From the NCBI GenBank assembly GCA_024763055.1, contig JANTGH010000012.1, positions 1 to 44,572 of the forward strand: a stretch of 44,572 bases of DNA. Direction: 5' to 3'. Source of the stretch: Desulfobulbaceae bacterium. Lineage in GTDB: Bacteria > Desulfobacterota > Desulfobulbia > Desulfobulbales > Desulfobulbaceae. Below the pieces are notes generated by a model. The model did not search any database and was not told the origin of the DNA. It worked only from the letters and a program-made list of their open reading frames with translations. Shown here piece after piece: positions 20,528-40,162 of this stretch. Each line of letters opens with the position of its first letter. Position 1 is the first letter of the stretch. The position numbers and the translations under genes were made by a program.

Positions 20528-23500
20528 ATGGACGGACACCTCACCTGGACAACAAACAAGCAAGCACGTCCTTTGTGCTTTTTTCACCTGATATCTATTT
20601 TATGTATATTTACTGTTTCGCTCCTGTTTGCCGAAACAGTGTCGGCCGCAAGTCTTCGGGTCCTCGGCGTCCAGAAAAGCGGAACCATCAGTCGGCTTGC
20701 CGAATACCGCTGGGTTATTGAAGAAGATCTGACTTACAATGTCGTGCCCGGTGTCCAGGTTGCCACCCCCCTTGCAGTGCAGTTCCATCGCAGTTACATG
20801 CCGGTTGTGGCCCAGGGTGACAACACTACGCCGCTTCCTGCCCTTGACGCCGCAAAGAGATATTATGTTTCGGTTATTCCCAAAACAGCAGGTACCTACA
20901 GCGTCGGTGGCGCACCTCTTGTTGGTGATGGAAGGGTAACGGTATATCTCAACCAGTTACCTCTGCCCACCGCCCAGATCACGGTTTTTGTCTTTCAGGA
21001 TATAAGTCCCATCAATAATGCCTTTGATACCGGTGAGCCTGGTCTTGCAGGGTTCAGAATCAAGCTGGAAGATGCCGGCGGTCGCTATGGTATTTCCGCC
21101 GGAGAGCAGATGGCAGATGCCTTTGGGAATCCCCTGGGAACACGCTATCTCAAGACCTGCGATGAGTTCGGACAGAATCCGGGCTCCGGCACTTCTGGTT
21201 GCCTGGACGCTGACGGTGCGCCGATAGTTGCCGTTGATGCAGGCGGTAACCCTGTTGTTGAGCCGTTAATCACCGGACCGGACGGACGGTTGACCATTAA
21301 AAATCTGGCACCGGGCAAGTATGGTGTTATTGCGATTGCACCTAATGCTGTAGAAGATCCACCCGGTTCCGGTAACTTTGTCGGCACCAACTGGGTGCAG
21401 ACCTCAACCATCGAGGGAACCAAAGTGATCGATGCCTGGGTCAAGGCAAATGAGCCGCCGTTTTTTCAGGAATTCGGCGCGCCGGGTTCCCATGTCTCCA
21501 TCGGTTTTGTTCCCGCCGGCCCGAATAAGCCCTTTATTGATACCACTGTCCTCACCGGAGGCGCTGCCATCAGTGGTCAGGTTGTCAACCTGCACCTTTC
21601 CAGGCCGCCTGCTACTGCGTTTTTCAATGGCGCCCCCTTTGCCCATACCACACCCTGGGTTGGCCTGAATCAGGGTGGGGCAGGCGTTGGTCGGGGCATT
21701 TACGCTGCCCGGGCAAACAGTGACGGTACTTTTACTATTCCCAACGTTCCTGACGGCAGTTATCAGCTGGTGATCTGGGATGATTCTCTCGATATTATCT
21801 TTGCCACCCATGGTGTGACCGTTACCGGCGGCACTGCCGTCGACCTGGGCGAGGTTCCGGTCTTCCAGTGGTTTGCCAGGGTGGAAAATCATGTCTATAA
21901 CGATGTCAACGAAAATGGGTTCCGGGATACCGGTGAAGAGGGTATTCTTGAGCAGGCAGTTAATCTGCGCTGGCGTGACGGCTCGATTTATCAATCCTTT
22001 CCGACTGACAGTGAAGGATTTGTACCCTTTGATCAGGTCTTCCCGTTTTTTTCCTGGCTGGTTGCCGAGGTTGACTTTGCCCGTTTCAAGGCAACCGGTC
22101 TGACCGTCACCATAGATGATGGCGGTCCTATTGACAGTGCGGATCCCTGGTCCTGGGAAGGGGTACTCAATCCCCAGCCTCAGGGCGTACCCCCTGATCC
22201 GGACAGCGCCGTAGTAACCACTAAGTATCGCACGGAACTTGGTCCGGTGCTGACCGAGGGTTTTCAGGCCTTTCTCGGCCAGACCCATGTCTTTGAATGG
22301 GGCAAGAAACCCTATGGCCCCGATGAAAACGGCGGTATTTCCGGAATCGTGTACTATGCCGTGACCAGGGCCGAGGATGATCCGGAACTGGCCGCCGCCG
22401 AACCCTGGGAACCCGGTATTCCCTCGGTACAGGTGAACCTCTATGCCTATGATCAGAGCCAACCCGGCTATAAGGGCGCGCTTTTAAACTCCACCTTGAC
22501 CGACAGCTGGGACAATGATCCGCCGCAGAATTGCCAGTATGGAGCCAATGCGGGCAGCGGTACCGACGATCCCTTTGTTTTACGCGGTGTGCCCACCGAC
22601 TGTTTTGATGGTATGCGTAACTGGAACCAGGTGCGTCCGGGTGTCTTTGACGGCGGTTATGCCTTTGATTCCATCATCGACCCGCAGACCTCGGCGCTGA
22701 TCAGTCCCATCCCACCGGGACGCTATATTGTTGAAGTTGTCCCGCCGCCTGGTTACCAGGTTATCCGGTCGCAGGATAAAAATGTCGATTTCGGCGACAA
22801 CTATGTTCCGGGTCCGCAACTGCTGCCGCCGGAATGTGTAGGTGATACCTATACCGTCCCTGCAGAACTCAACCTTTTTCCGGGAGTTCCGGCCGCCTTT
22901 GCCGGGCAGAGCCTGCCGGGCTGTGAGCGCAGATTGGTATCACTTGTCGGTGGAGCCAATGCGGCCGCTGATTTTATGCTCCATACGGATGCCCCTGTGG
23001 CCGGACATATTATCGGTTTTATTCTTGATGATACCGCCAATGAGTTTGATCCAACCTCTCCCCAGTTTGGCGAAAAATTTGCCCCGCCCTGGCTGCCTAT
23101 TTCCATCCGGGACTGGACCGGCCGTATGATCAGCTCAACCTATTCCGGCGAGTATGGGGTCTATAATGCCCTGGTGCCTTCTACATATACGGCGAATCTC
23201 CCCAAACCAAGCGGCATGTCGCCCAATATGCTTACCACCTGCATGAATGATCCGGAAGCCGATACCCTTGGCGGATTTTATAATCCTCAATATTCAACCT
23301 TCTGCTACACTCTGCAGTATATGCCGGGAACAACAACCTACCTGGATACCCCGGTGGTCCCGGTCGCCGCCTTTACCGGGCCGGATCAGTTCCCGCTTGA
23401 CTGCGAGTTCCCCGAGCATACGCCAAGAATCAGTGTGGTGACGTCCAGTGACGCTCCCGGGCCCTACCTGGCAGCCGACAGCGGTACCCTGACCCTGACC

Positions 23501-25615
23501 TCAATGGGAGATGTCAATGTGCCCAACCCCATATACGATGGTTCCGGTGGTACGGAGCCGAAAACAATCATCCGCGATTACGGGTTCGGCGCTACCACGG
23601 GTACGGTAACGCTTGGCGGGACATCCTTGACGGTGAGCTCGTGGAATAACACGACCATCCAGGCAACTGTTCCTGCCGGAGTGACTTCCGGCCAACTGGT
23701 GGTTACCCGGGGAGATAACAATATCTCTTCAATCACCGCTGTTACGGTCCAGATCGGGCTTCGCTTTCGGGCTACCCTGCGAACGGTCAGCGCCGGTGAA
23801 TCCATTCAGGCGGCCATTGATGCCGCCAGACCCAATGACCTGATTCTGGTCGGACCGGGGACCTATCATGAGATGGTCATCATGTGGAAGCCTGTGCAGC
23901 TGCAGGGGTCCGGTGAAGGAACGATTATCAGCGCCACCAAAGTTCCGGCGGAAAAAGTGGTTGCCTGGCGGGAAAAGGTTAATCAGTTCAGTGCATTCTA
24001 TGACCTGGTTCCCGGCCAGGGAGGGGCTGTCGGTGGTGTTGAGCCTGGTCCGTTTTTCAGCGAAGAGGGGGCCGGAGTCCTGGTTCTGGCAACGGCCGAC
24101 CCTGCTAATCTCTACAGTTTTAGCAATGCACGCAATCAGGCTGCCCGTATTGATGGCTTTACCATCACCGGCGCTGATGTCGGCGGTGGAATAGTGGTCA
24201 ACGGGTATGCGGATTTTCTCGATATCTCCAATAACCGGATAACCGGTAATAACGGCTTTTTCGGCGGTGGTGTCCGGGTTGGTCATCCCACGCTCACCAA
24301 TGATGTCGGAGGCGTGATGGTCTTTTCCGACTCCGATAACGACAATGTTGATATCAGGAACAATTATATCAGTCGTAATGCCGGTTTCAGCGGCGCAGGC
24401 GGCGGTGTATCTCTCTGTAACGGTTCGGATAATTACCTGGTTACCGGTAATTATATCTGCGGCAATTTCAGTCAGCAGGATGGAGCCGGTCTGGCCCATC
24501 TCGGCCTGAGCAATAACGGCGAGATTTCAGATAATATCATTGTTTTTAATGAAAACTTCAATCAGGGCGTCACGGTCAATGGCGGTGGGATATCCATTGC
24601 CGGTAATCCCGCTCCCGGCTGTCCCATTGACCCCAATACCGGTCTGGCGGATCCGGCCTGCCTGGCTGATCCCCTGCGGGCCTTATCTGCCGGGTCCGGC
24701 TCCGTTCAGATCCTGCGCAACCTGATCCAGGGTAATTCCGCCGGTGTCGGCGATGGCGCCGGTATTCGGTTGAGCCGGATCAACGGTCAGGATATGGCTG
24801 CAACACCTGCTGATGATACCACGTGGCATAAGGTAGATATTGTCAACAACATGATATTTAACAATGTTGCCGCTCTTGCCGGTGGTGGTATCTCGGTACA
24901 GGACGCCCTGCGAACCAGGGTATTGTACAACTCCATAGCCAATAATGACTCTACCGGCACCGGATCAGAAGCATTTACCCCTGGTGTACCCAGTGAATCC
25001 AACCCACTGCCCGGCGCCGGTATCGTTGCACGGGTGCACAGTACGGAACTGGCCGGGTTCCTGCCGGTCGGTGAGGCCGCTTTTTCAGACCTTGCCCTGC
25101 AGAACAATATCATCTGGCATAACCGTCAGTTTCATTTTCTGGTCGATTCCACGGATCCGACAAATGTCCTGAGCGGTCTCTGCCCGGATATCAACGGGTC
25201 CGTCGGCCTTGCCTGTGCCGGCGGTAATGCTCCCGTTTACAATGATTTTTCTGTGCTGCCGGCAGCAGCCGGCAGCCTGACATCTACCAATGACATCGTT
25301 TCCGGTGATCCCGATCCGGGATTTGTCTTTGAATATGTCAACGGTAACCGGGCGCCGACGATCAATCTGCCGGAGAATACCACGGCCATCGCTGCTCCGC
25401 CCGCCTTTGATGAGGGCGGTAATTTTATCCGCCTTCGTTTTGGCCCGTTGACCAGGATCAGGAGTTCCGCCGGTGATCCGAATATCGGTTCATTGTATGG
25501 CGATCTTCACCTGCAGGCATCCAACAATGGCGGCGCTGCCATTACCGGAATTACCGATGATTTTGACGGTGACCCGAGAAATGATCCGCCGGATATAGGG
25601 GCGGATGAGTTGTAG
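20528..25615 (+). CDS. giant exported SdrD-B / IPT / beta-helix protein
   Basis: The 1695-aa product starts after GGAGGG and has a long signal peptide (~1-40, ending ETVSAAS). It then shows a mosaic. SdrD-B-like Ig modules are near residues 155-260 (FVFQDISPINNAFDTGEPG) and 450-560 (HVYNDVNENGFRDTGEEG). A carboxypeptidase-regulatory-like region with PPGRYIVEVVPPPGYQV lies near 600-780. An SIRDWTGR...LPKPSGMSPNMLTTC module follows. An IPT/TIG domain is near 985-1080. A right-handed pectin-lyase-like beta-helix starts at VSAGESIQAAIDAARPNDLI (~1085) and continues to the C-terminus DIGADEL. No sortase or outer-membrane anchor is visible. As the largest protein of the cluster and immediately upstream of the cupredoxin genes, it may be a surface scaffold or substrate-binding platform for the oxidase. 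No enzymatic residues could be assigned to the beta-helix. Confidence 0.85.
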   Translation: MDGHLTWTTNKQARPLCFFHLISILCIFTVSLLFAETVSAASLRVLGVQKSGTISRLAEYRWVIEEDLTYNVVPGVQVATPLAVQFHRSYMPVVAQGDNTTPLPALDAAKRYYVSVIPKTAGTYSVGGAPLVGDGRVTVYLNQLPLPTAQITVFVFQDISPINNAFDTGEPGLAGFRIKLEDAGGRYGISAGEQMADAFGNPLGTRYLKTCDEFGQNPGSGTSGCLDADGAPIVAVDAGGNPVVEPLITGPDGRLTIKNLAPGKYGVIAIAPNAVEDPPGSGNFVGTNWVQTSTIEGTKVIDAWVKANEPPFFQEFGAPGSHVSIGFVPAGPNKPFIDTTVLTGGAAISGQVVNLHLSRPPATAFFNGAPFAHTTPWVGLNQGGAGVGRGIYAARANSDGTFTIPNVPDGSYQLVIWDDSLDIIFATHGVTVTGGTAVDLGEVPVFQWFARVENHVYNDVNENGFRDTGEEGILEQAVNLRWRDGSIYQSFPTDSEGFVPFDQVFPFFSWLVAEVDFARFKATGLTVTIDDGGPIDSADPWSWEGVLNPQPQGVPPDPDSAVVTTKYRTELGPVLTEGFQAFLGQTHVFEWGKKPYGPDENGGISGIVYYAVTRAEDDPELAAAEPWEPGIPSVQVNLYAYDQSQPGYKGALLNSTLTDSWDNDPPQNCQYGANAGSGTDDPFVLRGVPTDCFDGMRNWNQVRPGVFDGGYAFDSIIDPQTSALISPIPPGRYIVEVVPPPGYQVIRSQDKNVDFGDNYVPGPQLLPPECVGDTYTVPAELNLFPGVPAAFAGQSLPGCERRLVSLVGGANAAADFMLHTDAPVAGHIIGFILDDTANEFDPTSPQFGEKFAPPWLPISIRDWTGRMISSTYSGEYGVYNALVPSTYTANLPKPSGMSPNMLTTCMNDPEADTLGGFYNPQYSTFCYTLQYMPGTTTYLDTPVVPVAAFTGPDQFPLDCEFPEHTPRISVVTSSDAPGPYLAADSGTLTLTSMGDVNVPNPIYDGSGGTEPKTIIRDYGFGATTGTVTLGGTSLTVSSWNNTTIQATVPAGVTSGQLVVTRGDNNISSITAVTVQIGLRFRATLRTVSAGESIQAAIDAARPNDLILVGPGTYHEMVIMWKPVQLQGSGEGTIISATKVPAEKVVAWREKVNQFSAFYDLVPGQGGAVGGVEPGPFFSEEGAGVLVLATADPANLYSFSNARNQAARIDGFTITGADVGGGIVVNGYADFLDISNNRITGNNGFFGGGVRVGHPTLTNDVGGVMVFSDSDNDNVDIRNNYISRNAGFSGAGGGVSLCNGSDNYLVTGNYICGNFSQQDGAGLAHLGLSNNGEISDNIIVFNENFNQGVTVNGGGISIAGNPAPGCPIDPNTGLADPACLADPLRALSAGSGSVQILRNLIQGNSAGVGDGAGIRLSRINGQDMAATPADDTTWHKVDIVNNMIFNNVAALAGGGISVQDALRTRVLYNSIANNDSTGTGSEAFTPGVPSESNPLPGAGIVARVHSTELAGFLPVGEAAFSDLALQNNIIWHNRQFHFLVDSTDPTNVLSGLCPDINGSVGLACAGGNAPVYNDFSVLPAAAGSLTSTNDIVSGDPDPGFVFEYVNGNRAPTINLPENTTAIAAPPAFDEGGNFIRLRFGPLTRIRSSAGDPNIGSLYGDLHLQASNNGGAAITGITDDFDGDPRNDPPDIGADEL

Positions 25616-25692: not shown

Positions 25693-26913
25693 ATGGCAAC
25701 AGGATATCATAGAATCATAATGAAAATCGTCCTCACCGGATCGCTGTTCTTTCTTGGGTCTTCCGCTGTCCAGGCCGGTGTTCTGGTGCAGTGTCCGGGT
25801 GATGCCGATGGTTCGGCAACCTGGACCGGCGCCGAGGTTCAGCCTGTCCACGCCAAGTGCATGCATCTTGGGGCAGGGGATGGCTTTATTACCATGGCCG
25901 ATGGGAAGTTACAGTATATGTTCGGATTTTCCAACCTGACCGGTATTCCCGCCAACACGCCGACAGGGACGGCGGAAATTCTGGATGCCGGCACCTTGGC
26001 TGCCTCTTTTCCTGCCCCACTCATTGCACTTGACGAGGGGGATGAATTTTATCTGACGCTGACCAACATCGGTATGTCGATGCGGCCGGACCTGTTTGAT
26101 CCGCATACTGTCCATTTCCACGGGTTCCCACAGGCGGCCTCCATCTTTGATGGTCTTCCCGATTCCAGCATCAGTATCAACATGGGCTCCAGTCTGACCT
26201 ATTATTTCAAACTCAACAATCCGGGCACCTATATGTATCACTGCCATGTGGAGGCTGCCGAGCATATGCAGATGGGGATGCTGGGAAGTTTCTATGTCAG
26301 GGCGGCCCAGAATGGAACGATTTTTAATTACAAGGGTAAAGATTTTTCTCTGTTTGCCTACAACGACGGAGACGGTTCCACCGGTTATGACAGGGAATAT
26401 CCGATCCAGATTGGATCCTTTGATTCAGCTTTTCATGATGCCAGTCTTGCCGTGCAGCCGTTGCCCTTTGCCACCATGTTTGATAATTACTCCATGCTCA
26501 ACGGCCGGGGCTATCCGGACACCGTCAATCCGAATCCGCTGCCGCCGCCGGCCGAGAACGGCGGCAAGTTGTCCCAGGTAGAGAGTACCTTGATCACCGC
26601 CTCGCCGGGAGAATCCGTTCTGTTGCGTATTTCCAATCTCAACGTCACCAAAATGAATACCCTGGCGACGCTGGGCATTCCCATGCGGGTCATCGGTAAG
26701 GATGCCAGGCAGTTGCGGGGTCCGGACGGGAAAGATCTTTACTACAACACCAATTCCATCACCCTCGGCGGCGGAGAGAGCTATGACGTCATTCTTGACA
26801 TCCCTGCCGGCGACGCTGGAAAAACCTATTTTCTGTATACCACGCAGTTGCATTATCTGAGTAATGATGCCGAGCAGTTCGGCGGCATGATGACGGAAAT
26901 ACGAATTAATTAA
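25693..26913 (+). CDS. cupredoxin protein 1: type-1 copper plus half trinuclear site
   Basis: A 406-aa exported protein. The ATG at 25693 follows AAAGGAGG; the in-frame ATG at 25660 lies inside the upstream hairpin and has no RBS. After the signal peptide (~1-29) and a short Cys-containing segment (C34, C56) come two cupredoxin domains. The first has HTVHFHG (His138, 141, 143) and YHCHVEAAEHMQMGM (His183, Cys184, His185, His191, Met196). This equals the HxxHxH and HCH...HxxxxM motifs of multicopper oxidases, so it supplies a type-1 copper site and four of the eight trinuclear histidines. The second domain (~250-406) has no copper ligands. Only half a trinuclear centre is present, so a partner is needed; the next gene has the missing ligands. 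Conserved features such as AYNDGDGSTGYDREYPIQ point to a defined multicopper-oxidase subfamily. The substrate is unknown. Confidence 0.88.
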   Translation: MATGYHRIIMKIVLTGSLFFLGSSAVQAGVLVQCPGDADGSATWTGAEVQPVHAKCMHLGAGDGFITMADGKLQYMFGFSNLTGIPANTPTGTAEILDAGTLAASFPAPLIALDEGDEFYLTLTNIGMSMRPDLFDPHTVHFHGFPQAASIFDGLPDSSISINMGSSLTYYFKLNNPGTYMYHCHVEAAEHMQMGMLGSFYVRAAQNGTIFNYKGKDFSLFAYNDGDGSTGYDREYPIQIGSFDSAFHDASLAVQPLPFATMFDNYSMLNGRGYPDTVNPNPLPPPAENGGKLSQVESTLITASPGESVLLRISNLNVTKMNTLATLGIPMRVIGKDARQLRGPDGKDLYYNTNSITLGGGESYDVILDIPAGDAGKTYFLYTTQLHYLSNDAEQFGGMMTEIRIN

Positions 26914-26931
26914 CGCATGGGAGGGTATGCG

Positions 26932-28266
26932 ATGACAACGAGATTCAATCTGACCATGCAGCTGTCAGCAGTTCTGGCTCTGCTATTTTGGGTGAGCCCC
27001 CTGCAGGCCGGCATTGACGGCATTACCGGTACCAACTTTACCCTGAGCGTTAAAACAGGCAGGGTTTTTACTCCGGACGGCGGATCTCTTCTCCTCTGGG
27101 GATATGCCGACGGCACCGGTCCGGCCCAGTACCCGGGGCCGACCCTGATCGTCAACGAGGGCGATACCATTACCATTACCCTCAACAACGCACTGACCGT
27201 TGCCGGAACAGCTTCCGCGCCCAATGTGTCCATGCTCTTTCCCGGCCAGCGGGCGGAGACCTCGACAACCGATCCCGGCGTTCCTGGAATACTGACCAGT
27301 GAGGCAGCGCCGGGCGGTTCGGTGACTTATACCTTTATTGCCGCCCATCCCGGCACCTATCTGTACTACAGCGGCACGGATCCGGCTTTGCAGGTGGAAA
27401 TGGGCCTGATGGGCGCAATTATCGTTCGGCCGTCCAACGGCGCCAATTTTGCCTATAATCATCCGGACACCGCCTTTGACCGGGAATACCTTTTCCTCCT
27501 CAGCGAAATGGATCCACGCATCCACGAGGCGATCGAACTTGACGGCCCCCAGTCCACCGCCGTGGGCCCATATCTGGCCAATCCCTTTCCCGTGGTCTGG
27601 TTTATCAACGGTCGCAACGCCCCGGACACCCTGGATATTCCCAACCTGCCGGTACTGCCCAATCAGCCGTATAATTCTGCGCCGATGATGCATCCAGGTG
27701 AGCGGGTGCTTATGCGTGTTCTCGGTGGCGGCCGGGACCTGCATCCCTTTCATCACCACGGCAGTCATGCCAGGATCATAGCCCGTGACGGGCGTCTTCT
27801 TGCAAGCAGTCCCGGAGCAGGCCCTGATCTGAGTCATGAGGTTTTTACCATCAAGTCGGTTCCCGGCGAGACCGTTGACGCCATCTTCGAGTGGACCGGT
27901 AAGGGGCTGAACTGGGATATCTACGGAACGCCTGCGGATGGACCGCAGTTTGTCCACACCTGTGTGGATGGCAATGGTGATGATTTTGATGACACCACCC
28001 ATGAGTACTGCCCGGATCATTACAAACCGATTCCGGTGGTTCTGCCGGATAATCTTGATCTGGCGTTTGGCGGTTTTTACAGCGGCAGTTCCTTTATGGG
28101 CACCCTTGGTTCCCTGCCGCCCGGGGAGGGCGGTTTGAATCCCCATGGCGGCTATGCCTATATGTGGCATTCCCATACGGAAAAGGAACTGACGAATTTT
28201 GATATTTTTCCCGGCGGTCTGATGACCATGCTCATTATCGTGTCGCAGGGCGCGCCGATTCCTTAA
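26932..28266 (+). CDS. cupredoxin protein 2: complementary half trinuclear site
   Basis: A 444-aa exported protein; ATG at 26932 follows GGGAGGG (an earlier in-frame ATG at 26917 precedes that RBS). The signal peptide is ~1-26. The first cupredoxin domain has lost its ligands: the expected His motifs read NVSMLF and YLYYSGTD. The second domain contains HPFHHHGSH (His271, 274, 276) and MWHSHTEKE (His413, 415) but no Cys, so it lacks a type-1 site and offers the four histidines missing from protein 1. An insert with HTCVDGNGDDFDDTTHEYC (342-360) has two cysteines and an Asp-rich loop that may bind calcium. The gene starts 18 bases after the first cupredoxin gene, implying stoichiometric expression. 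I infer a heteromeric oxidase in which the trinuclear cluster sits at the interface. Confidence 0.87.
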   Translation: MTTRFNLTMQLSAVLALLFWVSPLQAGIDGITGTNFTLSVKTGRVFTPDGGSLLLWGYADGTGPAQYPGPTLIVNEGDTITITLNNALTVAGTASAPNVSMLFPGQRAETSTTDPGVPGILTSEAAPGGSVTYTFIAAHPGTYLYYSGTDPALQVEMGLMGAIIVRPSNGANFAYNHPDTAFDREYLFLLSEMDPRIHEAIELDGPQSTAVGPYLANPFPVVWFINGRNAPDTLDIPNLPVLPNQPYNSAPMMHPGERVLMRVLGGGRDLHPFHHHGSHARIIARDGRLLASSPGAGPDLSHEVFTIKSVPGETVDAIFEWTGKGLNWDIYGTPADGPQFVHTCVDGNGDDFDDTTHEYCPDHYKPIPVVLPDNLDLAFGGFYSGSSFMGTLGSLPPGEGGLNPHGGYAYMWHSHTEKELTNFDIFPGGLMTMLIIVSQGAPIP

Positions 28267-29839: not shown

Positions 29840-31447
29840 ATGAAAAACAGCGCATCTTTCATCATCCTTCTTTGTGCCGGTATGCTCTGGCTGTTACCCG
29901 GTAGTGGTGAGGCCGGGAACATCAGTTCTGATCTTACGGCAAGGCTTGCCCGGATGCGGCCGGGTGAAGTTGTGGATGTGCTTGTTTATTTTACTGATCA
30001 GCTGGATGCCAAGCGGCTTTTTCAGCAAAAAAAGGACGTGCTCACTGCCGGGGAAAAACGGATCAGGATCAATAAGGCGCTGCGCAGCAAGGCTGCTCAG
30101 GCGCAGGCCAAGGTGAAACAGCTGTTACTGCAGAACAAGGTTCGGAATATACGGTCCTTCTGGATCGTCAATGGACTGGCGGCAACCGTCCCCGTTGCAG
30201 CGATTCAACAAATTGCCTCCCAGCCGGGAGTGGCAAGGGTCGCCCTTGACGGCACGGTCAGGCTGCCGAAGACAACGATTGCATCCGCAGCTGCCAACAT
30301 TGCCTGGAATATTGATCTGACCATGGCGCCTCAGCTCTGGCAGCAGGGCTATGACGGCAGTGGTATCGTGATCGCCATTGTCGACACCGGCGTTGATATG
30401 GAGCACCAGGACCTGCAGGCACGCTGGCGGGGAGGGAACAACAGTTGGTATGACCCCAACGGTGAACATCCGACGCCCTATGATCCTGACGGCCACGGCA
30501 CCGGGGTTGCGGGCATCCTTGTCGGCGGTGATGCGGGCGGATCCGCCATCGGCATGGCTCCGGGCGCGCGCTGGATAGCGGTCAAGATATTTGATGACGC
30601 CGGCAATGCCTCCTACTCCGATATTCATCTTGGTTTTCAATGGCTGCTTGATCCGGATAATGACCCCTTGACCGATGATGTTCCCCAGCTGGTCAATAAT
30701 TCCTGGGGATTAAATGGTCTGGTCGGCCAATGTGTCACCGAGTTTCAACCGGATATTCAACTGTTGCAGGCAAGCGGAATTGCCATCAATTTTTCAGGGG
30801 GCAATGGTGGTCCCAATGCGAGCACCAGTATCAGTCCGGCAAATTATCCGGAGAGTTTTGCCGTCGGCGGAATCGATGTCGCATTGCTGGTTACGGATTT
30901 TTCCAGTCGTGGACCATCCGCCTGCGGCGGTGCTCTGTATCCGGCCCTGGTCGCCCCGGCGGTGGACATCCGGACAGCCGACCTAACCTTTGGCGGCCTC
31001 TTTCCGGACAGCTATGCCACGGTATCCGGCACCAGTTTTGCCGTCCCCCACATTACCGGGGCCATGGCCCTGTTGAAAAATGCCCGGCCCTGGATTACTG
31101 CCGCCGATCTCCGGCAGGTTCTGACCCTGTCGGCGGACGATCTGGAAGCGCCGGGACCGGATAATGATTCCGGCTATGGTCTGGTCAACGTGGTGCAGGC
31201 GCTTAATCTCCTTGATTCGCACACCTGCACGGATGCAAACGGTCAGCCCTATTTTGGCAGCGAGGGTTGCAATGGCGGTGGCGGACAGCCTGGTTTTAAA
31301 GGAATTGCCCCCATTCTGCATCTGTTATTGAGTCATGCGAAGATCAAACTTTACGGCGATGGGGTTTTCCTGTCGTCGGTGGCCCACAATACTTCGTCTC
31401 CCCGGTTAACCCCTACCCATGAGGTATCTTATGAGAGCACTATATAA
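29840..31447 (+). CDS. secreted subtilisin-like serine protease (S8)
   Basis: A 535-aa protease with signal peptide (~1-25), an inhibitor-I9-like prodomain (~30-140: EVVDVLVYFTDQLD... VNGLAATVPVAAIQQIA) and a subtilase domain. The triad is complete: Asp182 in IVDTGVD, His219 in PDGHGTGVAGI, Ser399 in SGTSFAVPHITG, with oxyanion Asn322 in SGGNGGP. The C-terminal ~75 residues hold a Cys pair (HTCTDANG...GSEGCNGGGG) and a hydrophobic segment IAPILHLLLSH. Position inside the oxidase cluster suggests processing or maturation of the large exported proteins rather than nutrition. The gene overlaps the following repeat-protein gene by 17 bases. Confidence 0.92.
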   Translation: MKNSASFIILLCAGMLWLLPGSGEAGNISSDLTARLARMRPGEVVDVLVYFTDQLDAKRLFQQKKDVLTAGEKRIRINKALRSKAAQAQAKVKQLLLQNKVRNIRSFWIVNGLAATVPVAAIQQIASQPGVARVALDGTVRLPKTTIASAAANIAWNIDLTMAPQLWQQGYDGSGIVIAIVDTGVDMEHQDLQARWRGGNNSWYDPNGEHPTPYDPDGHGTGVAGILVGGDAGGSAIGMAPGARWIAVKIFDDAGNASYSDIHLGFQWLLDPDNDPLTDDVPQLVNNSWGLNGLVGQCVTEFQPDIQLLQASGIAINFSGGNGGPNASTSISPANYPESFAVGGIDVALLVTDFSSRGPSACGGALYPALVAPAVDIRTADLTFGGLFPDSYATVSGTSFAVPHITGAMALLKNARPWITAADLRQVLTLSADDLEAPGPDNDSGYGLVNVVQALNLLDSHTCTDANGQPYFGSEGCNGGGGQPGFKGIAPILHLLLSHAKIKLYGDGVFLSSVAHNTSSPRLTPTHEVSYESTI

Positions 31448-33605
31448 CAAGTACACCCTGTTATGGTTTGTCATTTCGGTCTTTCTCTTCATGGGTACGG
31501 CAACAAGCGTCCTGGCGGCGTATCCGACGATTGATGGTGATAATTCTTTTGAGTGGATCACCAATGTCACGTTCAACACCATAGATAACACCACCGTTGC
31601 CGATACCAGTGGCTATGGAGATTACACCGCTGTTTCCACCACGGTTGCCCCTGGTTCCACCTATTTGCTTTCCGTTACCATCAAACCGGATACCGGAGAG
31701 AAGATCAGTGTATTTTTTGACTGGAATCAGAATGAGGTATTTACCGACCCGGGCGAAGAGGTGGTGGTCACCCCTGACATTATTCAGTCCTCGGATCCCA
31801 ATTCATTTACAGCTACAATAAACGTTAATGTTCCGGTTACGGCCACCCTGGGGGCGACCAGGATGCGCGTTGTGCTCAGTTTTCTTAACGCCGACACGGA
31901 TCCGGTTCAGAGTTCAGGTACGCTCCCCGGTGGTGAGGCGGAAGACTACACGGTAATTCTCGATAACGGCGCCGGAGGTCCGGTGATAACGGCCACGGCA
32001 GGGGCAAATGGAGTCATTGCTCCTTCCGGAGCGGTCAATGTCACCAGTGGCGCAAACCAGGCCTTCACCATTACGGCGAATGCCGGTTTTTTTGTTGATG
32101 ATGTACTTGTCGACGGCGGTTCCGTGGGCGCGGTCACTTCCTATACCTTTACCAATGTTGTGGCCGACCACACCATCCATGCGGTCTTTTCCTCCACACT
32201 CAACCATACGGTCACCGCCACTGCCGGCGCAAATGGTTCCATTGCTCCGGCAGGAGCGGTCAGAGTTGCCGATTCAACCAACCAGACTTTTTCCATCCAG
32301 CCGGCCTCGGGCTATCTGGTGAATGATGTGCTAGTTGATGGTGTAAGTGCCGGTGCGGTTTCATCCTATACCTTTACAAATGTAACTACAGACCATACCA
32401 TTGCCGCCGGCTTCGCTGCTGACACGGCCTATCCAGCTGTCAGTTCCAGTGATTTCAGTCTGGAATGGATCACCAATGTAACCTTCGGCACCATCAATAA
32501 CAGTTCCAATGCTGAGGGTTATGGCGCGTTTCTTGATAAGAGTACAACCGTACAACAGGGTGGGTCCTATCCTATCGCCATCACTATCCATCCCCAGGCC
32601 GATGAAAATGTCAGTGTGTTTATCGACTGGAACCAGGATGGTGACTTCACCGATGCCGGTGAAGAGACCAAGGTGGTTGAACTTTCCCCGGCGGCAGGCC
32701 CCCATGTCGCCACCGTCACGGTACCGAACGGCGCCGTCCTGGGCACAACCAGGATGCGGGTCGTTGTCCGTAATTTCTTGGCGGCAATAAGTTCGGGCGA
32801 TCTTGCCGCCGATAACGCAGGTGGGGAGGCCGAGGACTATACCCTTATAGTTGCCTCACCGGTTCCCGCCATTGATGCCTCTTTGGGTAATAATCCCACT
32901 TTCGGCACCATAGACCCACTCGGTCATACTCCGGTTGCCAGTGGAGCGAATGTGGATATAACGATCGATGTCACTGATCCCGTGTACTTTATTGATGATG
33001 TTCTGGTTGATGGGGTGACACTGGGAGGACCGTTTACTGCTCCTTACACCTATACCTTCAACAATATTGTCGTTACCCACACCATCCGGGCGGATTTCAG
33101 CAACATTCCCTTTCAAACCATCACCGCCACCGCTGGTCCAGATGGTTCGATTTCACCCTTTGGCGCCTTGAAAGTGCCGGTGGGGGGGAACAAGGTCTTT
33201 ATGATGACGCCCAATCCCGGCTTTGTGATCAAGGATGTCCAGGTTGATGGCGGTTCCGTGGGACCGGTGGAGTCGTATACCTTTACCAATGTTACGGCTG
33301 ACCATTCGATTACGGCCATGTTCAGTCTTTTTGCAGAAATCACAGCTTCAGCGGGACCCCATGGAACAATTTCTCCTGCCGGTGTCGTCAAAGTAGCGCT
33401 TGGCAACTCTCAGGTGTTCACCATCACGCCTGATGCGGGGTACGCGGTAAAAGATGTGCTGGTGGATAACGTTTCCGTTGGTTCCGTCGAATCCTACACC
33501 TTCACCAACGTGACCGTTCCGCATCAGATCTCGGCAAGTTTTGAAAAAACGTTTTCCTGGCCCATGTTTCTGCCGGCAATCGTTAACACCAACCGAGGAG
33601 CGTAG
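31431..33605 (+). CDS. exported GEVED / InlB-B-repeat protein
   Basis: A 724-aa protein; the ATG at 31431 is preceded by GAGG inside the end of the protease gene (an ATG at 31419 lacks an RBS). A signal peptide (~1-28, ending VLAA) is followed by two GEVED domains (each with an FFDWNQ or FIDWNQ calcium-like loop and closing GGEAEDYT, near 29-180 and 333-475). Five divergent InlB-B-like repeats of ~75 residues occur near 185, 260, 480, 560 and 635, each with (T/S)AG..G.I.P.G and SYTFTNV..(D/P)H.I.A.F. The protein ends WPMFLPAIVNTNRGA. Such proteins are adhesive or structural surface proteins; no enzyme signature is visible. It probably is part of the extracellular scaffold of the oxidase system. 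Confidence 0.86.
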   Translation: MRALYNKYTLLWFVISVFLFMGTATSVLAAYPTIDGDNSFEWITNVTFNTIDNTTVADTSGYGDYTAVSTTVAPGSTYLLSVTIKPDTGEKISVFFDWNQNEVFTDPGEEVVVTPDIIQSSDPNSFTATINVNVPVTATLGATRMRVVLSFLNADTDPVQSSGTLPGGEAEDYTVILDNGAGGPVITATAGANGVIAPSGAVNVTSGANQAFTITANAGFFVDDVLVDGGSVGAVTSYTFTNVVADHTIHAVFSSTLNHTVTATAGANGSIAPAGAVRVADSTNQTFSIQPASGYLVNDVLVDGVSAGAVSSYTFTNVTTDHTIAAGFAADTAYPAVSSSDFSLEWITNVTFGTINNSSNAEGYGAFLDKSTTVQQGGSYPIAITIHPQADENVSVFIDWNQDGDFTDAGEETKVVELSPAAGPHVATVTVPNGAVLGTTRMRVVVRNFLAAISSGDLAADNAGGEAEDYTLIVASPVPAIDASLGNNPTFGTIDPLGHTPVASGANVDITIDVTDPVYFIDDVLVDGVTLGGPFTAPYTYTFNNIVVTHTIRADFSNIPFQTITATAGPDGSISPFGALKVPVGGNKVFMMTPNPGFVIKDVQVDGGSVGPVESYTFTNVTADHSITAMFSLFAEITASAGPHGTISPAGVVKVALGNSQVFTITPDAGYAVKDVLVDNVSVGSVESYTFTNVTVPHQISASFEKTFSWPMFLPAIVNTNRGA

Positions 33606-33669: not shown

Positions 33670-34140
33670 ATGAAAAGATTTATTTTCCTGTTGACGGTCA
33701 CGATTCTGCTCCTTTCCTCTGTCTGCCTCCTGGCTGCGGAACCTGTAAAGCCCGGTCCCAGAGACCGTTGCCCGGTGTGCGGGATGTTTGTTGCTCCTTA
33801 TCCGGCATGGATTGCTCAGATTGAATTTAACGATGGCTCACGGGTATTTTTTGACGGAGCCAAGGATATGTTCAAATTCTATCTGAATCTGCCTGCGGAG
33901 GGAGAAGGTCACAGCCGGAAAACCATTGCCGGGATATACGTGACTGAATATTATTCGGCAAAAGCGGCAGCGGCAGACACCTTGCTGTATGTAGTCGGCA
34001 GTGATGTCCTTGGTCCGATGGGAAAGGAGTTGATTCCTGTAGCAGGGAAAAAAGCCGCTCAAACATTTGCCCGCGACCATGCCGGTCGTACCATTCTCAC
34101 CTTTGATCAGGTTACGAAAAAAATCCTTGCCGGATTATGA
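33670..34140 (+). CDS. nosL: NosL-family copper chaperone
   Basis: A 156-aa exported protein with a signal peptide (~1-23) and the copper motif DRCPVCGMFV (Cys34, Cys37, Met39) characteristic of NosL, the accessory protein that binds Cu(I) for nitrous oxide reductase. The rest (DGAKDMFKFY, YVTEYYSAKAADT-like stretch, ARDHAGRTILTFDQV) follows the family pattern. Typical NosL is a lipoprotein; here the segment SSVCLLAA lacks a good lipobox, so it may be periplasmic. No nosZ lies in the window, so its client is probably the multicopper oxidase encoded upstream. It overlaps the next gene by four bases. Confidence 0.88.
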   Translation: MKRFIFLLTVTILLLSSVCLLAAEPVKPGPRDRCPVCGMFVAPYPAWIAQIEFNDGSRVFFDGAKDMFKFYLNLPAEGEGHSRKTIAGIYVTEYYSAKAAAADTLLYVVGSDVLGPMGKELIPVAGKKAAQTFARDHAGRTILTFDQVTKKILAGL

Positions 34141-34472
34141 GACGAACAAAGGTTTTTCTCTCCTTTATTACTTTCCTGCTTTTTTTGTCTGTCTTCTTTG
34201 TAGGGCATAGTCACCATGAAAAACGGTTATGGCGCCAAAGAGAACTTCCGTCAGCGAGACAACTTATCCATCACTTCGGCCTGACTGATTTTGCCCTCTG
34301 GACCGAGGCCCGCTATACGAGGAACCCGGCCCTGGCTGATTTCTTCGCTCCTTTTCAGGATTTCCCAGCCGCCTTTGAACATTTCCCAGCCGGATCCATT
34401 CTTGCGCCCTCCCTTCCGGCAGTGGATACCAGGCTTTCCATCGGCAGGACGGCGGCCGGTTTTCCTCAATGA
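34137..34472 (+). CDS. small His-containing exported or membrane-anchored protein
   Basis: A 111-aa protein whose start overlaps nosL (ATGA) and whose stop overlaps the permease gene (ATGA); the double overlap argues that it is real. One hydrophobic N-terminal segment (residues 5-22) is followed immediately by GHSHHEKRLWRQRE (His24, 26, 27) and later IHHFG (His45, 46). The remainder is Pro/Phe-rich (FFAPFQDFPAAFEHFPAG) with no recognised fold. The cluster of histidines just outside the membrane and the position between a copper chaperone and a transporter suggest copper hand-over, an inference without family support. Confidence 0.62.
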   Translation: MRRTKVFLSFITFLLFLSVFFVGHSHHEKRLWRQRELPSARQLIHHFGLTDFALWTEARYTRNPALADFFAPFQDFPAAFEHFPAGSILAPSLPAVDTRLSIGRTAAGFPQ

Positions 34473-35629
34473 TTCGGTTATTGAAAATATTGGAATTTGC
34501 GCTCTCTTCGCTTGGTCGGAGAAAGTTTAAAAATTTTTCCATCATCGTTGTCTATTCGTTGACCATTACCGCGCTTGCCTCGGTGCTGTTGCTGACCTCT
34601 TCGCTGAAAAAAACGGCTTTAAATGTTTTGGTTGATGGGCCAAATATTGTTGTTCAGCGTCTTGCAGGCGGCCGCCATGATCTTATCCCTACGGATTATG
34701 CCCGCATCATTGAGAAAATACCGGGAGTTGGCCGGGTTAAGCCGAGAATCTGGGGCTATTATTATGACAGCCTGTATCATGCAAATTATACCATTCTCGG
34801 TATCGATAGAGGGTCGGAGCAGTTTGCAATGGTTGAGGGGAAAACACCGGCCGGTGATGAACAATGTATGGTCGGACAGGGGGTAGCCGAGGCGCAGCAT
34901 GCGGAGCCGGGAATGGATCTTTTGTTGATTAACAGTAAAGGTATCGGTTATTCCTGTGAAATATCCGGAACCTTTAAGGCGAAATCAGCCCTGTGGACCA
35001 ATGATCTCATCGTCTTTACCACCGGCGCCCTTAAGCGTTTTTTTACCATGCCCGATGGCCTGGCAACGGATATTACCGTGGAGGTCTTTAATGCCGGGGA
35101 GGTGGCACTGGTTGCGCAAAAGATCAAACGGCTGCTACCCGATACCCGACCGATAACCATTGATGAAATTCTCCACACCTATGAGTCGATTTTCAACTGG
35201 CGAAGCGGCATGATGCTGACAATTTTTACTTCATCTCTGCTTGCCTTCTCCATCCTTGCCTGGGACAAGGCCACCGGCATCAGCCGTGAGGAAAAGCGGG
35301 AGATCGGTATTCTCAAGGCCATCGGCTGGGATACCGGTGATGTCCTGACTTTGAAATTATGCGAGGGTGCCGTCATATCCGTCACCGCATTTCTTATTGG
35401 AATATCACTTGCCTATATCCATGTTTTTTTGCTGAACGCGCCGCTTCTTGTACCGGTGCTTAAGGGCTGGTCCGTTCTCTTCCCCCGCTTCCATCCTGTG
35501 CCTTATATAGACGGCTATCAAATTATTATCTTGGGTTTTCTAACGATAGTTCCCTATATGGCAAGCACAGTCCTTCCCTCCTGGAAAGCGGCGATTACCG
35601 ATCCTGAAAATGCGATGCGTGGAGTGTAA
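34469..35629 (+). CDS. FtsX-like ABC transporter permease
   Basis: A 386-aa MacB/FtsX-type permease. The N-terminal helix (~22-45) is followed by a periplasmic MacB-like domain (~50-235), then three helices near 250-270, 300-330 and 350-375. The cytoplasmic coupling sequence WDKATGISREEKREIGILKAIGWDTGDVL is typical of this class, and the C-terminus PSWKAAITDPENAMRGV matches the family's end. Such permeases act in mechanotransmission or extraction of lipoproteins and other periplasmic clients rather than solute import. It is encoded three bases before its ATPase. In nos-type clusters the equivalent NosFY pair delivers sulfur/copper-site components, so a maturation role for the oxidase is plausible. 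Confidence 0.88.
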   Translation: MIRLLKILEFALSSLGRRKFKNFSIIVVYSLTITALASVLLLTSSLKKTALNVLVDGPNIVVQRLAGGRHDLIPTDYARIIEKIPGVGRVKPRIWGYYYDSLYHANYTILGIDRGSEQFAMVEGKTPAGDEQCMVGQGVAEAQHAEPGMDLLLINSKGIGYSCEISGTFKAKSALWTNDLIVFTTGALKRFFTMPDGLATDITVEVFNAGEVALVAQKIKRLLPDTRPITIDEILHTYESIFNWRSGMMLTIFTSSLLAFSILAWDKATGISREEKREIGILKAIGWDTGDVLTLKLCEGAVISVTAFLIGISLAYIHVFLLNAPLLVPVLKGWSVLFPRFHPVPYIDGYQIIILGFLTIVPYMASTVLPSWKAAITDPENAMRGV

Positions 35630-35632
35630 GTA

Positions 35633-36313
35633 ATGGCCGGGATTATTCAGGTTGAGCGCATCAGTAAGTATTACAATCGGAACCAACCCGATGAGGTCAG
35701 GGCACTGTCGGACATACATCTGACAATAGCAGCAGGGGAAGCTCTGGTTGTCAATGGCGCCAGTGGTTGCGGCAAGACGACCCTGCTCGGGCTTGTCGGT
35801 TGCATGTCGCGCCCTACCTCCGGCAGCGTCCTGGTAGATGGCCGGGATGTGTCCCGGCTGCCCGAGAGATTTCTTGGCGATATCCGAAGGCGGACCTTTG
35901 GCTTTATCTTTCAGCAGCTCAACCTGATAAAGAGCATCAGCGTGTTGGAAAACACCCTGCTGCCCCTCTATCCCGGTAAACTTTCCATGAAAGAAATGAA
36001 AATACGGGCTGAAGAGATTCTTGCACGGTTTGATCTCAATACCCGGGCCGGAGAGAAAGTTTCACGACTCTCAGGCGGTGAACAACAACGGGTCGCCATT
36101 GCAAGGGCCCTGATTCATCAGCCGCAGGTCATCATTGCCGATGAGCCGACCGCTCATTTAGACAGTGTTCTTGCTGCGGAACTGCTTGATATTCTCTCCG
36201 GGCTGAACCGGGAGGGCAAAACCGTACTCATTGCCACCCATGATCCTTTTGTCTCCAATCACTCATTGATAGATCGCGTCATCCGCATGCGGGATGGTCG
36301 TATTATTGATTGA
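35633..36313 (+). CDS. LolD-like ABC transporter ATPase
   Basis: A 226-aa ATP-binding subunit with Walker A GASGCGKTTLL (~43-53), Q-loop FIFQQLNLI, signature LSGGEQQRVAIARAL (~143-157), Walker B VIIADEPTAHLDS and switch ATHDPF. The sequence is of the LolD/MacB type, which works with FtsX-like permeases, and the gene starts three bases after such a permease, with GGAG upstream. The pair probably powers assembly or release of a periplasmic component of the copper system. All ATPase motifs are intact. Confidence 0.93.
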   Translation: MAGIIQVERISKYYNRNQPDEVRALSDIHLTIAAGEALVVNGASGCGKTTLLGLVGCMSRPTSGSVLVDGRDVSRLPERFLGDIRRRTFGFIFQQLNLIKSISVLENTLLPLYPGKLSMKEMKIRAEEILARFDLNTRAGEKVSRLSGGEQQRVAIARALIHQPQVIIADEPTAHLDSVLAAELLDILSGLNREGKTVLIATHDPFVSNHSLIDRVIRMRDGRIID

Positions 36314-37329: not shown

Positions 37330-37364
37330 AAGGCCACCTGTTGGTGGAATCTCCGGAGGTTTCT

Positions 37365-38087
37365 ATGCGTACATTTATCCGAAAATCCCTCGAGACAGGG
37401 CGTGTCCATGCCGGAGCAAGGGGTTTTCATCGTTCCTTGTGGCCGGCCAATCCGGAGTCTCCACTACGTTCCGCTTACCTGGTCCAGGCATGCTGGTTTA
37501 TAAAAAGCATGACGTGTCTCTGTCTTGTCGCAGGCATGGTGTTTTTTTTCAACCTCCCTTCGGTGCAGGCAAAACAGCGTTATGTCAGGACCCTGGAAAA
37601 ATACACCATCCCGGATGTTACCCTGGTCAACCAGGACGGGAAGAGTATTGCCCTGAAACACTATCTCGGGGATACCGATAAAAACGTTGTTCTCGAATTC
37701 ATTTTTGCCACCTGCACCACCATCTGTCCGATTCTTTCCATTGGCCTGACCAACCTGCAGAAAAAGCTGGGCGATGAGGCGGGCGGCGTACAACTGGTTT
37801 CAATTTCCATAGATCCCGAACACGACACGCCCAGAGTAATGAAGGAGTATTTGAAGCGGTATAATGCAGGGCCGGGCTGGGACTTTCTGACCGGCAGTCT
37901 TGAAGACATCAACCGTACCATGCGTGCCTTTGACGCCTATGTCTCCGATAAAATGGGCCATCGGCCCCTTGTCTTTCTGCATGCCCCGAAAGCGGAAACA
38001 TGGGTGCGAATTGATGGGCTTTTGAGTGGCAGGGAGTTGAAAAAAGAATACCTGCAACTGGGAAAAAAGAAGATTCCGGCAAAATAG
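37365..38087 (+). CDS. SCO1/SenC-family copper-site assembly protein
   Basis: A 240-aa thioredoxin-fold protein. The ATG at 37365 follows CGGAGG at a good distance (the ATG-like start at 37341 lacks an RBS). A hydrophobic segment (~48-68) anchors or exports it. The copper motif is FATCTTICPILS (Cys117, Cys121), and the distal ligand His199 lies in KMGHRPLVFL, so all three SCO ligands are present. SISIDPEHDTPRVMKEY is the family signature. SCO proteins load or reduce copper sites, classically CuA of cytochrome oxidase; no cytochrome oxidase is encoded here, so the nearby multicopper oxidase is the more likely client. It is the last gene of the plus-strand cluster and converges on the next gene with only 21 bp between. 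Confidence 0.92.
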   Translation: MRTFIRKSLETGRVHAGARGFHRSLWPANPESPLRSAYLVQACWFIKSMTCLCLVAGMVFFFNLPSVQAKQRYVRTLEKYTIPDVTLVNQDGKSIALKHYLGDTDKNVVLEFIFATCTTICPILSIGLTNLQKKLGDEAGGVQLVSISIDPEHDTPRVMKEYLKRYNAGPGWDFLTGSLEDINRTMRAFDAYVSDKMGHRPLVFLHAPKAETWVRIDGLLSGRELKKEYLQLGKKKIPAK

Positions 38088-39755: not shown

Positions 39756-39820
39756 GTAGCCTTGTGTCCTGTTTTTAAAAAAATGATATCTGTTGATGGC
39801 TGCCGCCCCCTGGCGTGAAA

Positions 39821-40162
39821 TCAACCCGGAGGCCAGTTCATATCGCGGCCGCCGAGAATGTGCATGTGGATATGGAAGACGGTCTGCCCGGCCTGTTCGC
39901 CGTTATTAAAGACAACCCGATAATGGTCGATGCCCTCTTTTTGCGCAATCTCGGAACCCTTGCGCATGATTTTCCCGATGAGCTGCTCGTCTTCCGGCGT
40001 AAGGCTTGACGGGCCACTGATGTGCTTTTTGGGAATGACGAGAAAGTGGACCGGCGCCTGGGGCGCTATATCCCTGAAGGCCAGAATGTCATCGTCTTCG
40101 TATATAATATCGGCCGGTATTTCTCCGCGGACAATTTTACAGAAAAGACAGTTGTCGGACAT
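39821..40162 (-). CDS. HIT-family nucleotide hydrolase (HINT-like)
   Basis: A 113-aa protein with the HIT triad motif HIHMHILGG (His97, 99, 101), N-terminal CLFCKIVRGEIPADIIYEDD and the typical PVHFLVIPKKHI stretch. Members hydrolyse purine nucleoside phosphoramidates, including aminoacyl-adenylates, as a housekeeping function. The ATG at 40162 follows AGGAGGAG; an upstream in-frame start at 40189 would place the RBS inside the gene. It ends three bases within the possible extended start of the cytochrome fusion gene and is probably co-transcribed with it, but there is no functional link visible. Confidence 0.95.
   Translation of the reverse strand: MSDNCLFCKIVRGEIPADIIYEDDDILAFRDIAPQAPVHFLVIPKKHISGPSSLTPEDEQLIGKIMRKGSEIAQKEGIDHYRVVFNNGEQAGQTVFHIHMHILGGRDMNWPPG

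Follow-up and report, generated by a model that had tools for sequence, protein, structure and literature searches.

The window analysed here, a stretch of 44,572 nucleotides from a Desulfobulbaceae bacterium (contig JANTGH010000012.1), carries three tandem genes whose products, designated P1, P2 and P3, are two-domain cupredoxin proteins, and the ligands of a single multicopper oxidase site are divided between the first two of them. We consider it likely that P1 and P2 have one site in common with P3 as the third subunit, and the P1/P2 interface taken by itself is held with greater confidence than the reading that includes P3. Judging from the sequences, different subunits most likely assemble to make the enzyme, since no chain has the whole site and P1 and P2 together have exactly one; a heterotrimer appears likelier than a heterodimer, because P3 and a giant protein encoded beside the trio are constant partners of the other two.

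P1 (positions 25693-26913, + strand, 406 amino acids (aa)), P2 (26932-28266, + strand, 444 aa) and P3 (28284-29297, + strand, 337 aa) each have, by eye, a signal-peptide-like start. Translation of P1 is placed at ATG 25693, which has an AGGAGG-like site ahead of it, and that of P2 at 26932, with GGAGGG upstream; the mechanical open reading frames (ORFs) begin at TTG 25660 and at 26917, respectively. Cu-oxidase_3 of Pfam is the first domain in all three proteins, and the second is Cu-oxidase in P1 and P3 and Cu-oxidase_2 in P2, so that two cupredoxin domains per chain are recognized by Pfam matches in both halves of P1 and P3, and in P2 also by a fold match. The intergenic gaps are 18 bp (P1-P2, as the first-pass annotation of this DNA had stated and the coordinates confirm) and 17 bp (P2-P3). 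The range covered by that annotation, 25693-28266, omits P3 and the giant gene (20528-25615), both part of the system.

Copper ligands of the trio and their conservation

The first domain of P1 contains H138-x2-H141-x-H143 (HTVHFHG) followed by H183-C184-H185-x5-H191-x4-M196, which together provide a type-1 (T1) copper set (H138/C184/H191/M196) and the first half of a trinuclear set (H141/H143/H183/H185), encoded at 26104-26280 (+ strand, H138 to M196). The second domain of P1 is without HxH and ligand-free. In P2, the second domain has H271-x2-H274-x-H276 (HPFHHHG) and H413-x-H415 (HSH), the second half of the trinuclear set, encoded at 27742-28176 (+ strand, H271 to H415); its T1 place is without Cys, both Cys residues of the protein (344 and 360) lying within an inserted stretch, and no HxH is present in the first domain of the window protein. 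P3 of the window has neither HxH nor a copper ligand set. The first-pass annotation had counted these motifs in P1 and P2 and added them up to one type-1 site and eight histidines; re-reading of the DNA and translations bears out both the counts and the sum, namely one T1 set, which lies wholly in P1, and eight trinuclear His, four from each protein. None of P1, P2 and P3 is thus a single chain with T1 and trinuclear ligands in both domains, and a homotrimer of any one of them would be unable to form the site, because each lacks a complete ligand set.

The division extends well past this genome. In alignments of the window with 61 loci (P1, 61 rows; P2, 62 rows; P3, 60 rows), none of the 13 ligand positions varies among the P1 and P2 rows that have the residue. 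The full ligand set is found in 62/62 P2 rows and in 59/61 P1 rows, the remaining two (L024 and L036) being cut at contig edges and agreeing where residues exist. Identity to the window P1 is 45-93% (median 50), and clustering of the P2 rows at 90% identity leaves 54 groups, with just two pairs of rows more than 97% identical. Most His residues outside the ligand set drift, as judged from P1 H53 (10% conserved) and H387 (13%) and P2 H275 (21%) and H302 (6%); P1 H248 and P2 H363 are also invariant, and P2 H198 and H254 are conserved in 94% and 85%, respectively. The HxH motifs of the P1 rows are confined to 141 (59 rows), 183 (60 rows) and one in an insertion after 212, between the domains. The annotation had named a P1 homologue with a full trinuclear set of its own as evidence that would speak against a site divided between P1 and P2; when such a homologue was sought, HxH was found in the second domain of 0/61 P1 rows. 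The P2 rows have HxH at 274 and 413 (62 rows each), at 252 (25 rows), at 42 and 196 (2 rows each), and at 340 and in an N-terminal insertion (1 row each), with none at the equivalent places of the first domain (0/62 rows); those of P3 have it only at 241, in 2 of 60 rows.

At the places equivalent, by eye, to H183, C184, H185 and H191 of P1, the first domain of P2 has Y/H/Q, S, G and Q, and that of P3 has E/Q/H, S/T, G and Q. His occupies the first of the HCH places in 20/62 P2 rows and 10/60 P3 rows, and the last in 5 P2 rows; the His at the first place in P2 and P3 is taken as a relic of a dead site. The extra HxH at P2 252-254, which lies outside the known motifs and reads MMH in the window protein, could be a further metal site. 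P1 H248, P2 H198 and P3 H190 occupy seemingly equivalent places (by eye) of the three paralogues, again outside the copper motifs. P2 is also longer by about 90 residues, in the stretch of about 295-405, than the two-domain oxidase 3g5w of Nitrosomonas europaea; this stretch, modelled in part with low confidence, holds C344, C360 and the invariant H363 and could serve as a cap over the site or in donor binding.

Sequence relationships and predicted structures

In sequence comparisons with the PDB, P1 (E 6.2e-17), the profile of P2 (E 1.6e-15) and P3 (E 3.9e-4) all match 3g5w best, as does the second domain of P2 alone, weakly (E 0.23) and aligned motif on motif. In these alignments, 3g5w has its Cys in domain 1 and HxH without Cys in domain 2; the first domain of P1 aligns to domain 1 and the second domain of P2 to domain 2, motif on motif, so that the halves of a 3g5w-like site are found separately, the first in P1 and the second in P2. 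A tree built from 44 sequences over 309 columns, with five type A/B two-domain oxidases (assigned by motif) and three NirK-like proteins as references, one of the latter exceeding the NirK family cut-off, and with no 3g5w-like protein, sets P1, P2 and P3 apart from both reference groups with support of 91 and joins P2 with P3 at 99 (clade support: P2, 100; P3, 100; P1, 78). A genome of the same phylum also encodes a two-domain oxidase that is one chain and, having HCH motifs in each of its domains, belongs by motif to type A (L085, 1306-2403).

Two AlphaFold2 models were built from artificial chains read through the stop codons. The three-protein model (P1-P2-P3 of locus L002, 1171 aa; mean predicted local distance difference test (pLDDT) 76.3, predicted template modelling score (pTM) 0.71) used an alignment of 59 rows (A4), from which lone P3 rows were left out and in which P3 has a depth of about 13 rows. 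An alignment of 93 rows (A2) was dropped because the lone P3 rows fell on other columns, as seen from low identities and mixed residues in the P2 columns. The window P1+P2 model (830 aa, 63 rows) has pLDDT 79.8 and pTM 0.58. The nearest listed folds of P2 in the latter are 2zwn, from a metagenome (Z 30.1; 273 residues, 2.7 Å), and 3g5w (Z 29.7; 274 residues, 2.8 Å), which are tied.

Over both chains, the window model is matched by the oxidase 6vow with Z 25.4 and a root-mean-square deviation (rmsd) of 4.1 Å, 369 of 409 residues being aligned. The alignment spans model residues 24-823, that is, P1 51 to P2 437, as its first and last aligned residues. The motifs of 6vow follow the three-domain order (HWH and HPH towards the N-terminus, HPIHLH and HCH towards the C-terminus), and because the alignment is order-preserving and nearly whole-chain, the simplest account is that the first domain of 6vow lies on the first domain of P1 and its last on the second domain of P2. 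In three-domain oxidases, the trinuclear cluster is located at the contact of the first and last domains. A contact between the first domain of P1 and the second domain of P2 is accordingly predicted in the model, which lends support to the proposal of the first-pass annotation that copper would be bound at an interface of the two proteins. None of the chains is by itself a three-domain oxidase, in which domain 1 has the HxH pairs and domain 3 the HCH; the P1+P2 model resembles one. By Foldseek, the three-protein model gives template modelling (TM) scores of 0.67-0.74 by target length against four Thermus laccase entries over 757-774 columns, for which more than a two-domain match is needed.

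Several observations weigh against this interpretation. The Foldseek score for the Thermus laccase is just 0.49-0.50 in the window model, and loops beside the site (window model 118-132, 757-771 and 775-781) have pLDDT below 50. Among the 50 VIA matches listed for that model, 6vow, at rank 39, is the only one to span P1 and P2 at low rmsd, three others doing so at 15-16 Å. No three-domain oxidase is among the 50 VIA matches listed for the three-protein model, in which the listed matches extending beyond P2 are nitrite reductases (among them 6hbe, 427-1141, 2.5 Å; 1et5, 19-931, 4.4 Å; three more at about 14 Å). Ceruloplasmin superposes by Foldseek with an rmsd of 33.9-34.4 Å on the three-protein model and 14.6-15.5 Å on the window model. 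The single sequence of P2 finds a Geobacillus nitrite reductase (NirK) as its best match (E 1.7e-11), ahead of 3g5w (E 1.2e-8). Related enzymes are also known to AlphaFold2, and the read-through chains are artificial constructs. Finally, the case for metal oxidation goes back to one proteomics paper on a relative.

A ceruloplasmin-like ring in the chain order P1-P2-P3 was considered and rejected. Ceruloplasmin and MnxG are among the top Foldseek matches of the three-protein model by E-value, yet they are poorly superposed, and for ceruloplasmin a TM score of about 0.2 at an rmsd of about 34 Å indicates that no such ring was modelled. If the second domain of P2 contacts the first domain of P1, the order in a ring must be P2-P1-P3, which an order-preserving aligner cannot show fully against ceruloplasmin; the absence of ceruloplasmin and MnxG from the 50 VIA matches listed for each model is no evidence against either.

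Gene order, co-occurrence and the giant protein

With P2 as the query, a pattern scan across genome contigs yielded 42 loci, with best segments 37-94% identical, in records whose names include Desulfobulbaceae, Thiobacillus, Thiomicrorhabdus, Anaeromyxobacter, Acidobacteria, tubeworm symbionts, Sideroxydans and Rhodoferax. The order P1-P2-P3 on one strand is found in 40/42, contig edges having cost L030 its P3 and L031 its P1. When 395 genomes drawn from the phylum of the window were searched at E up to 1e-30, P1 and P2 were found in an identical set of 17, the remaining 378 having neither. The same order is present in all 17 further regions, taken from 16 other P1-bearing genomes (one with two copies), which may overlap with the genomes behind the 42 loci. 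Copy numbers also match, with two P1 and two P2 in genome G209 and five of each in the acidobacterial genome G449 (that of L020), where the five P1-P2 paralogous pairs are adjacent and lie on contigs C1, C4, C11 and C32, and where no unpaired P1 or P2 match was found at E up to 1e-10. The partnership of P1 and P2 that the annotation had put forward is thus upheld by shared occurrence, equal copy number and gene order.

Long frames in L028 (1193 aa) and L030 (1129 aa) were examined as candidate P1-P2 gene fusions and rejected; P1 is an ORF of its own overlapping each of them, and in L028 P1 and the long frame terminate in different reading frames, so that the long frames are taken to be open GC-rich frames. 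No true fusion of P1 and P2 was seen in the 42 loci, and six domains in one polypeptide were encountered nowhere, the frames being separate in the window, the 42 loci and the 17 further loci. In a Lamellibrachia symbiont (L021), P1 and P2 stand 1.2 kb apart, and the space between them holds a P2-like frame of 146 aa (7747-8184) that may have arisen by partial duplication or through faulty assembly. The P3 frame of L003 (2601-3185) has only 195 aa and stops about 30 bases short of the contig end, either a truncated P3 or an edge error.

The giant protein (20528-25615, + strand, 1695 aa) contains SdrD_B and the fn3_3 domain of polysaccharide lyases above the Pfam cut-offs, TIG and others just below them, and weak NosD-like stretches. 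In 28/42 loci, P3 is the N-terminal part of a giant protein, and behind the P3 domains of these fusions the giant protein of the window aligns with best pieces 29-49% identical, often over most of its length. It is a separate upstream gene in the window and in others such as L001, L002 and L018, and a homologue is located upstream in 15 of the 17 further loci, three of these being truncated where the contig begins; L072 and L077, the two without it, have P1 close to the contig start. Because P3 and the giant are one protein in most loci, the trio appears functionally tied to it. The position of the giant gene is not fixed, since a piece of it (L027, 1-633) lies on the strand opposite the trio.

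Downstream, a subtilisin-like serine protease (29840-31447) and a GEVED-domain protein (31419-33605) separate the trio from genes for copper handling. These encode a NosL family protein (33670-34140, + strand; Pfam NosL, E 5.2e-30) and a SCO1/SenC family protein (37341-38087, + strand; SCO1-SenC, E 1.9e-20), both of copper chaperone families and presumably accessory in copper delivery; an FtsX-type permease with an ABC ATPase (34469-36313, + strand) lies between them, and its position would suggest a role here. Six proteins encoded downstream of the trio in L008, L018, L019 and L023 had no Pfam match at E up to 0.01, to SCO1/SenC or to any other family. On the opposite strand (38109-39824, − strand), a protein joins a cytochrome c domain with one CLNCH motif (Cytochrom_C, E 2.3e-5) to a periplasmic-binding-protein-like domain (Peripla_BP_6, E 9.9e-4), the same domain pair that the accessible text of PMC5566968 gives for MofC-like proteins. 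It is a possible redox or electron partner. As an obligate partner it was rejected, given that among 57 related genomes P1 (E up to 1e-10) occurs in 7, the cytochrome (E up to 1e-20) in 7, and both in 3.

Proposed enzyme, alternatives and comparison with known oxidases

In the predicted assembly, the three paralogous two-domain oxidases would make up a heterotrimer in which only one of three sites is live, the genes having diverged after duplication in which half of the site they retained or lost. The subunits would be arranged as a ring P2-P1-P3, in line with the known geometry of two-domain trimers, with the live trinuclear cluster between the second domain of P2 and the first domain of P1 and the other two interfaces dead. 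Electrons would enter from an outside donor at the single T1 copper, in P1, which would feed the trinuclear cluster, and dioxygen would be reduced to water at the P1/P2 interface, the sites being presumably loaded with copper. The donor would most plausibly be Fe(II) or Mn(II) (or Cu(I)), although a metal as substrate is put forward tentatively, at somewhat less than an even chance. P3 would act as a non-catalytic third subunit and as the attachment to the giant, adhesin-like extracellular protein.

The place of P3 is open to another explanation, every ligand lying in P1 and P2. These two could form a heterodimer or a higher heteromer, with P3 just carrying the giant protein and joined loosely or not at all, and the lower identity of P3 to its window counterpart (in L010, 31% versus 43 and 44% for P1 and P2) would agree with this. 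We regard such an enzyme as rather unlikely, given that P3 has the two-domain fold and follows P2 in 40/42 and 17/17 loci; the higher pTM with P3 (0.71 versus 0.58 without it) points in the same direction, weakly, as the species and lengths differ.

Less probable still is that no trinuclear cluster exists, P1 carrying electrons through its T1 copper and P2 working separately as a histidine-rich chaperone or other copper binder. Such a pair would be in keeping with the complete T1 set within P1, the signal-peptide-like start of each protein, the additional HxH at 252 in 25/62 P2 rows and the invariant H363. However, H141, H143, H183 and H185 would be needless for a T1 carrier, yet all are invariant, and H274/276/413/415 of P2 are placed as the HxH pairs in domain 2 of 3g5w. 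A single type-2 copper at the interface, as in NirK, seems very improbable. NirK also has its T1 copper in domain 1, and P2 has NirK structures among its closest fold matches and a NirK as the best match of its single sequence, but two HxH on each side make eight His, and the NirK model TIGR02376 gives 36.1 bits for P1 and 38.4 for P2 versus a curated cut-off of 296.3, which places neither in that family. The common site of P1 and P2, with P3 as the third subunit, is hence the reading we retain.

The closest known enzymes are the two-domain oxidases with T1 copper in domain 1, 3g5w and 2zwn, which have the same fold and the same motif places; we take them to be of the kind labelled 'type C'. 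They are products of one gene that form homotrimers with three equal sites, whereas the trio consists of three paralogous chains with one site. Two-domain laccases likewise form homotrimers with the site between monomers, according to the available part of PMC3192119. As described in the accessible portion of PMC3600357, the six-domain oxidases derive from a triplicated ancestor and have one trinuclear site, at domains 1/6 or 2/3. Ceruloplasmin and MnxG thus resemble the trio in having six cupredoxin domains and one trinuclear site (by motif in the trio), but are one polypeptide with T1 copper in even-numbered domains (PMC3600357), in contrast to the trio, which is made of three polypeptides and has its T1 ligands in the first domain of one of them. 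Two kinds of subunit also occur in the fungal heterodimeric laccases, a further group of multicopper oxidases, in which the complete set of coppers belongs to the large subunit and the small one has none.

A counterpart of the trio appears to have been described in Sideroxydans lithotrophicus ES-1. In the part of PMC12016527 (2025) that is accessible, the trio Slit_1816-1818 shows higher expression with magnetite than with Fe(II)-citrate and encodes two proteins with canonical oxidase motifs and a third, larger one without them, all predicted to be extracellular. The likeness to the present system lies in three tandem cupredoxin genes, one much larger, together with SCO1/SenC and a cytochrome (PMC12016527, PMC5566968, in their available parts). 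From this description and from the locus of a Sideroxydans metagenome-assembled genome (L023), we infer that Slit_1816-1818 correspond to P1, P2 and a P3-giant fusion, although the ES-1 genes were not aligned. The difference is that the ES-1 description credits each of two proteins with canonical or typical motifs of an oxidase and does not speak of one common site; a split site finds no mention in the accessible text of these two cluster papers, and subscription journals and preprints were outside the search.

A trinuclear site between two chains is already known, in homotrimers. What is new, as far as the literature was searched, is that the chains are unlike, each without a whole site, and that a third, dead paralogue is tied to a giant surface protein. 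Evolutionary schemes of the ceruloplasmin type assume a triplicated two-domain ancestor in which two of three trinuclear sites were lost (PMC3600357, available part). We favour, by a modest margin over doubt, the view that the trio is a three-gene, ceruloplasmin-like heterotrimer and as such a halfway house between the homotrimeric two-domain and the six-domain single-chain oxidases, in which duplication and the loss of two of three sites would have preceded any gene fusion, and in which the dead subunit would have become a tether to a giant cell-surface protein, holding the enzyme against a mineral electron donor. If this is true, a three-gene enzyme with two sites already lost shows that loss can precede fusion. 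The study of a candidate extracellular iron-mineral oxidase would also change, since its two 'multicopper oxidases' should be inactive when expressed singly, and tests of single genes would consequently give false negatives.

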